Assembly (NCBI RefSeq): GCF_000284035.1
Contig: NC_016887.1
Location: 5,518,001-5,582,000, forward strand
Origin: Nocardia cyriacigeorgica GUH-2
GTDB lineage: Bacteria; Actinomycetota; Actinomycetes; Mycobacteriales; Mycobacteriaceae
Reading direction: 5' to 3'
Length of the DNA stretch: 64,000 nt
In this document: piece after piece, positions 21,529 through 22,816 of the stretch
Layout: every line of letters begins with the position of its first letter
How positions within the stretch are numbered: the first letter of the stretch is position 1
Program-made: the position numbers and the translations under genes
The notes under the pieces: model-generated
Seen by the model: only the letters and a program-made list of their open reading frames with translations
Told to the model about the DNA's origin: nothing
The model's database searches: none

Positions 21529-21912
21529 TCAGTCCCGGTCGGGCACCAGCACACCCAGCAGCCAGTTGACCACCGTGACGATGATGGCGCCCCAGAATGC
21601 GGCCCAGAAGCCGTCGATGCGCAGGCCGTAGTCGGTGAATTCGGTGATCCAGGCCGTCAGCCACAGCATCAGGGCATTGACCACCAGCAGGAACAGGCCG
21701 AGGGTCACGATGACCAGTGGCAGCGACAGCAGCTGCACGATCGGCTTGATGAGGGCGTTCACCAGGGTGAACACGGCCGCGACCGCCAGCAGCGTGACGA
21801 TCTTGGCGCCGTTGCCCTGGTCCTCCGGACTGATGATGTCGATCTTGTCGATCCACGTCGCGGCCAGCCAGATGGCGAAGGCGTTGATGACCAACCGAAG
21901 CACAAGCTGCAT
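21529..21912 (-). CDS. Phage-holin-superfamily (mycobacterial 4-TMS) membrane protein
   Basis: A 127-aa integral membrane protein with four hydrophobic helices. Seen: the N-terminal LVLRLVINAFAIWLAATWID, VNALIKPIVQLLSLPLVIVTLGLFLLVVNALMLWLTAWI and a final FWAAFWGAIIVTVVNWLLG. The NALIKPIVQLLSLPL motif marks the family of four-TMS proteins grouped with phage holins by sequence; they are widespread chromosomal genes of unknown role and do not imply a prophage. It is convergent with the putative immunity gene, ten bases away. Confidence 0.85.
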   Translation of the reverse strand: MQLVLRLVINAFAIWLAATWIDKIDIISPEDQGNGAKIVTLLAVAAVFTLVNALIKPIVQLLSLPLVIVTLGLFLLVVNALMLWLTAWITEFTDYGLRIDGFWAAFWGAIIVTVVNWLLGVLVPDRD

Positions 21913-21971: not shown

Positions 21972-22550
21972 TCAGGCGGCGCGGTCCAGCAGGGCGTGCA
22001 CTCGGGTGCGCAGCGCCTCGACCTGCTCGTCTGCGCCGATCAGCGCCGTTGTCGTCGCGTTCGGCGCGCGCAGGATCGCCAGCAGGATGTGCCCGGATTC
22101 GATGCCCTTGTCCTTGCGCGCCAAGGCCTCCCGCAGCGCGAGCTCGAGTGTCTTCTTCGCGTCGCGGGAGAAGCGGATGTGGCCGAACTTCATTGCGCCG
22201 CGACCGAAACGTCCGCGGGGTTCCGGTGGTTCGGCGCGGTCGAGCGCGTCCTCGCCGAAGGTGGCCTCGAGGCTGTCGCGCACCGCGTCGAGGTCGATGC
22301 CGATGGAGCGCAGCGCTTCGGCGTCACGGTCGCCGAGCGGTGCGTTCTTACCGTCCTCCGCGAGGGCGGCAGCCACGTCGGCATGCGTGAGGCCGGCGGC
22401 GGCCAGCGTTTCCCGCATCGCGGGTTCGGCCTGCGACAGCACCCCGAGCAGCACATGCTCGACGCGGATCTCGGGCGCGCGCAACTGCCGGGCCTCTTCC
22501 TGCGCCACGACCACGGCCATCCGGGCGTTGTTGCTGAACCGTTCGAACAT
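21972..22550 (-). CDS. Stand-alone Clp N-terminal-domain protein
   Basis: A 192-aa protein made of two Clp-N type repeats without the AAA ATPase part. Seen: MFERFSNNARMAVVVAQEEARQLRAPEIRVEHVLLGVL (repeat 1, residues 1-38) and FSRDAKKTLELALREALARKDKGIESGHILLAILR (repeat 2, about 130-165). In ClpC these repeats bind adaptors or substrates, so this protein may act as an adaptor or decoy. It overlaps the upstream HTH gene by TGATG, and both probably form one leaderless transcript. The longer frame that extends upstream is the HTH coding region in another frame. Confidence 0.9.
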   Translation of the reverse strand: MFERFSNNARMAVVVAQEEARQLRAPEIRVEHVLLGVLSQAEPAMRETLAAAGLTHADVAAALAEDGKNAPLGDRDAEALRSIGIDLDAVRDSLEATFGEDALDRAEPPEPRGRFGRGAMKFGHIRFSRDAKKTLELALREALARKDKGIESGHILLAILRAPNATTTALIGADEQVEALRTRVHALLDRAA

Positions 22551-22768
22551 CAGCGGCCCCTGCCTCTCCGGTATTTCTGATGCACCGCTTGCTTGCTGAC
22601 CTCGAGCGAGTCTGCGATCGCCTGCCACGACCAGCCCTGATCCCTGGCATTGGCCACCTGGATCGCTTCGAGCCGTTCGAGCAGCCGGCGCAACGCCAGC
22701 ACGGCCCGTAGCCCGACTTGCGGGTCCGGGCTGCCGGCCGCCGCTGCCAGCGTGGTTGCTTCCGTCAT
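22550..22768 (-). CDS. Small HTH DNA-binding protein, partner of the Clp-N gene
   Basis: A 72-aa protein with a C-terminal helix-turn-helix: ERLEAIQVANARDQGWSWQAIADSLEVSKQAVHQKYRR, in which the GWSWQAIADSLEVSKQAVHQ turn-recognition unit is clear. It is probably the repressor of its own operon: two 18-bp palindromes cover the predicted -35 and -10. The start is ATG at 22768; a start 102 bp further up is also in frame but would sit in the operators. There is no ribosome site, fitting a leaderless transcript. The stop overlaps the Clp-N start. Confidence 0.85.
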   Translation of the reverse strand: MTEATTLAAAAGSPDPQVGLRAVLALRRLLERLEAIQVANARDQGWSWQAIADSLEVSKQAVHQKYRRGRGR

Positions 22769-22770
22769 GG

Positions 22771-22788
22771 CGTCAATTTTGATTGACG
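22771..22788 (-). promoter_or_regulatory. Operator 2 and -10 region of the HTH/Clp-N promoter
   Basis: On the coding strand this 18-bp site is CGTCAATCAAAATTGACG, with perfect seven-base arms. It covers a -10-like CAAAAT (22776-22781), which ends seven bases before the ATG at 22768. Confidence 0.75.
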
Positions 22789-22798
22789 ATCGCCGGTC

Positions 22799-22816
22799 TG
22801 TCAACAAAGATTGACA
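22799..22816 (-). promoter_or_regulatory. Operator 1 and -35 region of the HTH/Clp-N promoter
   Basis: On the coding strand this 18-bp site is TGTCAATCTTTGTTGACA. It shares the TGTCAATC/TTGACR pattern with operator 2 and is centred 28 bp away. Its right half is a consensus -35, TTGACA (22799-22804), 17 bases from the CAAAAT -10. Confidence 0.75.

Follow-up and report, generated by a model that had tools for sequence, protein, structure and literature searches.

A two-gene HTH/Clp_N operon of Nocardia cyriacigeorgica as a probable split counterpart of the autorepressor ClpC2

Introduction

In mycobacteria, ClpC1 is a drug target, and ClpC2 blunts the action of cyclomarin-type compounds and BacPROTACs. 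Experiments have established that mycobacterial ClpC2 (Rv2667) represses its own promoter, which is predicted to be leaderless, through CGTCAAC-n5-GTTGACG sites lying over the -35 and -10 elements (Taylor et al. 2023, PMC10030653). Binding of cyclomarin A to the Clp_N domain of ClpC2 relieves this repression, and the additional ClpC2 in turn protects ClpC1 (PMC10030653). Part of the DNA binding has been placed in the Clp_N domain, since R185A/R189A mutants weaken binding in EMSA, and the operator alignment of the same study includes a Nocardia operator (PMC10030653). Two other proteins are relevant for comparison. The HTH similarity between ClpC2 and the antitoxin RelI (Rv2664, PDB 9SDC) has already been noted (PMC13284704). 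Two papers mention ClpC3 of M. smegmatis, a small Clp protein that reportedly binds both cyclomarin and ecumicin and is induced together with ClpC2 (PMC10864484, PMC10914731).

Here we describe an operon in a window of 64,000 nucleotides from the genome of N. cyriacigeorgica GUH-2, in which a small HTH gene precedes a gene for a stand-alone Clp_N protein. We read this operon as a split ClpC2, with a probability of about 0.65.

Results

Two operators are embedded in the promoter of an HTH/Clp_N operon

An earlier note on this DNA had proposed two palindromes 28 bp apart, overlaid on a TTGACA/CAAAAT promoter in front of an HTH/Clp-N gene pair, and all of these features are present (Table 1). On the plus strand, the proximal palindrome reads CGTCAATTTTGATTGACG, with 7 of 9 pairs complementary, and the distal one reads TGTCAACAAAGATTGACA, with 6 of 9; 28 bp separate the centers of the two 18-bp elements. 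From 22816 to 22766 the minus strand runs TGTCAATCTTTGTTGACA-GACCGGCGAT-CGTCAATCAAAATTGACG-CC-ATG. The note's distance of seven bases to the ATG holds for the CAAAAT hexamer, while the proximal palindrome instead ends 2 nt before the start codon. CAAAAT is a weak match for a -10 element. The combination of TTGACA, a 17-nt spacer and CAAAAT is the sole promoter-like site in the surrounding 600 bp, where shuffled sequences average 0.0.

Table 1. Positions of the operators and genes of the operon within the window.
Feature	Position	Strand	Remarks
Distal operator TGTCAATCTTTGTTGACA	22799..22816	-	Right half is the -35 hexamer TTGACA (22804-22799)
Proximal operator CGTCAATCAAAATTGACG	22771..22788	-	Contains -10 CAAAAT (22781-22776); 2 nt 5' of ATG
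HTH gene, 72 aa, predicted autorepressor	22550..22768	-	ATG at 22768, the expected leaderless start; stop ends at 22550
Clp_N gene, 192 aa, stand-alone double Clp_N	21972..22550	-	ATG at 22550

The stop codon of the HTH gene and the start codon of the Clp_N gene overlap as TGATG. The Clp_N gene product matches Pfam Clp_N with 46 bits and has no ATPase. The HTH protein falls below the curated Pfam cut-offs (HTH_23, 22.6 versus 24.6 bits; Sigma70_r4_2, 22.4 versus 25.7 bits). Directly downstream of the Clp_N gene, 21529-21912 on the minus strand encodes a small membrane protein of PF04020, the mycobacterial 4 TMS holin-like family.

The pattern GTCAAYN4RTTGAC occurs twice in the window, compared to none in 100 dinucleotide shuffles, and pattern searches of the whole genome (6.19 Mb) returned exactly two sites, both at this operon. 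The same genome encodes a separate fused ClpC2 of 239 aa. Its promoter reads CGTCAAC-caacg-GTTGACG, 9 bp, CGTCAAC-ctatg-GTTGACG, c, ATG, and shares the 28-bp two-operator layout of the window operon. Within the genome, the window operon is alone in having perfect n4 sites and clpC2 alone in having perfect n5 sites, which makes the two appear to be separate switches. We found no wider regulon in this genome, because a near-match pair at 254,245-254,304, rejected as a further target, lies before a TetR-type gene, and the remaining one-mismatch n4 sites are mostly inside ORFs. At that location (G000:C1:254245-254318; L011, L012), overlapping GTCAACA.../TGTTG(G/A)C palindromes sit directly 5' of the TetR-type regulator gene, which is unrelated to the split-HTH family.

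The operators and the start codon are conserved in Nocardia

The Clp_N protein is 88-90% identical to N. cyriacigeorgica, and on that basis the genus was taken to be Nocardia. Of 59 genomes in this genus, 58 encode a relative of the HTH protein. Among 33 Nocardia loci, some of them near-duplicates, the proximal operator is kept in all 33 and the distal operator, hence the pair, in 31. Operator centers lie 27-29 bp apart, and the ATG follows the proximal 16-bp core after 2-4 nt. The tight junction between the HTH stop and the Clp_N start is altered at a single locus (L044). Because the flanking DNA is not comparably conserved, selection appears to act on the operators and on the start codon at 22768.

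The two-gene form extends across Actinomycetota

A seven-sequence profile found matches in 97 of 296 phylum-wide Actinomycetota genomes and in 211 of 296 class-wide genomes, counts that include weaker matches to fused ClpC2 and to other HTH proteins. At 187 of the 233 loci analyzed, 30 of which form the Nocardia set, an HTH gene is followed by a Clp_N gene, and Clp_N is the partner gene in nearly every strong profile match. By this survey of sequences, the two-gene form is common in Actinobacteria. Phage records contained no recognizable HTH relative. One locus (L136) was considered as a natural HTH-Clp_N fusion within the split family and rejected as a frameshift of the usual pair; no natural fusion was found in the family.

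We scanned the 187 HTH/Clp_N loci, without assuming a motif, for two like palindromes 26-30 bp apart, using mononucleotide shuffles as controls. The operator pair scored above every shuffled control at 164 of them. All 164 of these split loci have n4 half-site spacing (16-bp sites), compared to n5 (17-bp sites) in all 18 fused clpC2 promoters that scored above control. The two operators lie 27-29 bp apart at 163 of these 164 loci and 28-29 bp apart in the fused form. TAnnnT appears at positions 8-13 of the proximal site in 92/164 loci and of the distal site in 15/164. The first in-frame start lies 2-5 nt past the proximal site in 163/164, and SD-like 4-mers precede 13/164 HTH starts versus 137/164 Clp_N starts. 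The pattern seen in the split loci is that of a predicted leaderless first gene followed by an SD-initiated second gene. For the leaderless transcript suggested earlier, the start-operator distance and the scarcity of SD-like motifs provide strong in silico support.

Elsewhere the HTH family and its paired GTCAA operators precede genes other than Clp_N (L144, L147 and L149; also L151 and L265). Among these partners are membrane proteins of ABC transporters (at L144, PF00664) and, at other loci, an AAA ATPase and a SIR2 gene, the latter with one operator site. Since the HTH gene occurs with its operators before such varied genes, the repressor module appears to have been swapped between partners.

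The HTH protein is the probable operator reader

The HTH recognition helices and their operators form distinct classes (GTCAA, GTCAG and GCAAC), often as paralogues in one cell. In a set of 150 distinct HTH sequences, base 5 of the half-site can be predicted from the residue that follows Q60, which is A61 in the window protein. A majority G at this base is never paired with Ala61 (0 of 109 sequences; 108 have A and 1 has T), and each of the 18 sequences with Ser61 or Thr61 is paired with GTCAG. Base 6 likewise varies with residue 64, and base 2 with residues 42 and 58, as in the pairing of TRQA with AGCAAC. Where paralogues share a genome, recognition helix and operator differ together. On a FastTree tree, the covariation comes down to 6-7 changes, and only 2 independent pairs sit on branches with good support; it is not phylogenetically significant on its own, there being too few changes for power. 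The link between residue 61 and operator base 5 makes it very probable that the HTH protein reads the operator. Autorepression by this protein at two promoter-embedded operators, as the earlier note envisaged, gains strong in silico support from the conservation, the paired operators and the residue-base covariation, and we hold it to be highly likely.

Upstream regions of the AGCAAC class (L076-L079, L081, L082) have GCAAC as outer half-sites and GTTGACTA/TAGTCAAC as inner ones. With this arrangement, both operators also make one large palindrome around the promoter spacer.

The AlphaFold model of the HTH protein (mean pLDDT 90.8) has a long helix at residues 16-43, followed by HTH helices at 48-55 and 59-67. 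A Foldseek search with this model gave no significant match. In VIA-align the best match was Fis (Z 5.5; rmsd 4.9 with 64 residues aligned), a level that common arrangements also reach; 8ADA and 9SDC are absent from that output, which has no bearing on their sequence match.

The window HTH protein and the N-terminus of ClpC2 are homologous (39% over 41 aa). The profile of the split HTH family matches the ClpC2 N-domain structure 8ADA and, more strongly, RelI (9SDC, E 2.3e-8). The match to 8ADA reaches its final residue, V72, immediately before the recognition helix. The end of the solved fragment at this point is a possible reason why the N-domain was characterized as no more than a four-helix dimerization bundle and DNA binding was assigned to Clp_N. 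Our analysis suggests that the DNA binding of ClpC2 also resides in its N-terminal HTH, in which case the published Clp_N assignment would be revised.

The Clp_N partner resembles the ClpC1 receptor domain

In Foldseek, the AlphaFold model of the Clp_N protein (mean pLDDT 86.7) groups with ClpC1-NTD structures, including rufomycin-, cyclomarin- and ecumicin-bound forms. The cyclomarin-contact residues of ClpC1, F2, F80 and E89, are kept in the window protein and in 79 of 124 members of the GTCAA class, 1 of 22 in the GTCAG class and 1 of 18 in the GCAAC class, the loss in the latter two being partly due to alignment gaps. The position of ClpC2 R189 is Ala in the window protein and usually not Arg across the split family. 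M. smegmatis ClpC3 could be a member of this family.

Discussion

A proposed mechanism and its alternatives

In the mechanism we propose, the HTH protein would form a dimer, as its relatives ClpC2 and RelI suggest. The dimer would bind the two GTCAAY-N4-RTTGAC operators covering the -35 and -10 elements of the putative leaderless promoter and repress its own operon; promoter anatomy and covariation are consistent with this. The co-translated Clp_N protein would present a ClpC1-NTD-like pocket. By analogy with ClpC2, a rise in pocket ligands, such as unfolded or tagged clients or ClpC1-targeting peptide antibiotics, would induce the operon, and the extra Clp_N would compete with or shield ClpC1. 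Among the conceivable routes to relief, we favor one in which Clp_N contacts the HTH protein and the repressing complex falls apart when Clp_N takes up its ligand; for ClpC2, such a step has been proposed to occur within a single chain. Such a ClpC2-like sensor or decoy role for Clp_N is, on this analogy, reasonably probable; ligand relief through HTH-Clp_N contact is plausible, at somewhat below even odds. The Clp_N protein had previously been cast as an adaptor for proteolysis. We do not favor that role over a sensor or decoy, since ClpC2, the nearest studied relative, competes for ClpC1-NTD ligands and soaks them up (PMC10030653).

Relief need not involve Clp_N at all. The HTH protein alone might be the repressor, with Clp_N a purely downstream effector (decoy or holdase) and induction following from loss of the HTH protein, for instance through degradation by ClpC1P1P2. 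Operator specificity does follow the HTH protein alone, and since the HTH gene also stands, together with these operator pairs, in front of ABC transporter genes and others that are not Clp_N, it can work without Clp_N. However, Clp_N is its partner in nearly every strong match, and ClpC2 unites both domains in one chain in which a Clp_N-bound ligand lifts repression (PMC10030653), so we regard this alternative as unlikely while granting it appreciable weight. The opposite division of labor, with DNA read mainly by the Clp_N domain (compare ClpC2 R185/R189) and the HTH only dimerizing or recruiting it, draws on the weakening of ClpC2 binding by R185A/R189A in EMSA (PMC10030653). It is very improbable given that R189 is replaced by Ala in the window protein and Arg is usually missing there from the split family, that changes in the HTH recognition helix go together with changes in the operator bases, and that operators are kept at orphan HTH genes without Clp_N.

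The two remaining explanations borrow from relatives. Fused ClpC2, encoded elsewhere in the genome, could bind the window operators in trans, as the nearly identical half-site and the shared 28-bp spacing would allow. The division into n4 split and n5 fused sites is without exception, though, and each perfect site is restricted to its own operon in the genome, which makes this a shade less probable still. A toxin-antitoxin pair, in which the HTH protein would be a RelI-like antitoxin to a Clp_N toxin, would fit the RelI profile match and the small overlapping genes with predicted autoregulation. We give it the least credence of all: Clp_N is a substrate- or ligand-binding domain rather than a nuclease, a RelS-type neighbor was not seen among the flanking ORFs, and strains producing ClpC2 grow normally (PMC10030653).

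Significance

The reading as a split ClpC2 implies that a widespread two-gene counterpart of ClpC2 could be an unrecognized layer of tolerance or sensing. More tentatively, and we think doubtfully, the family may comprise phylum-wide two-protein Clp_N sensor/decoy switches in which both sides have diversified in parallel. Under parallel diversification, the Clp_N pockets of the GTCAG and GCAAC classes would, from their residues, no longer be of the cyclomarin-binding type, and Actinobacteria would hold several separately wired sensing or defense lines for molecules and clients acting at the ClpC1 receptor.

Comparison with known systems

As worded, the claim that such a self-controlled system would be a novelty in this group is incorrect: ClpC2 follows the same logic in the same phylum, and a Nocardia operator already stands in the published alignment (PMC10030653). 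The regulatory logic is thus known; the two-gene form, its breadth, the spacing signature and the HTH-operator code appear undescribed in the searchable literature, and our search of open-licence papers found no published description of an HTH + Clp_N two-gene system.

Like RelI, the window HTH protein is short, belongs to the same HTH family and has a long dimerizing helix, but the partner of RelI is the toxin RelS (PMC13284704) and here it is Clp_N. The window Clp_N protein resembles the ClpC1 N-terminal domain in modeled fold and pocket residues; unlike ClpC1, it lacks AAA+ modules, and a long charged linker separates its two repeats. With ClpC2 the window operon shares a Clp_N without ATPase, all three cyclomarin-contact residues (F2, F80 and E89) and a homologous N-terminal HTH region, as well as a pair of GTCAA/TTGAC operators, spaced by about 28 bp, that cover the -35 and -10 of a predicted leaderless promoter adjoining the ATG. 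It differs in that HTH and Clp_N are encoded by two overlapping ORFs rather than one polypeptide, in that n4 rather than n5 separates the half-sites, and in that its Clp_N, without R189, is nearer in sequence to the ClpC1-NTD than to the ClpC2 C-domain.
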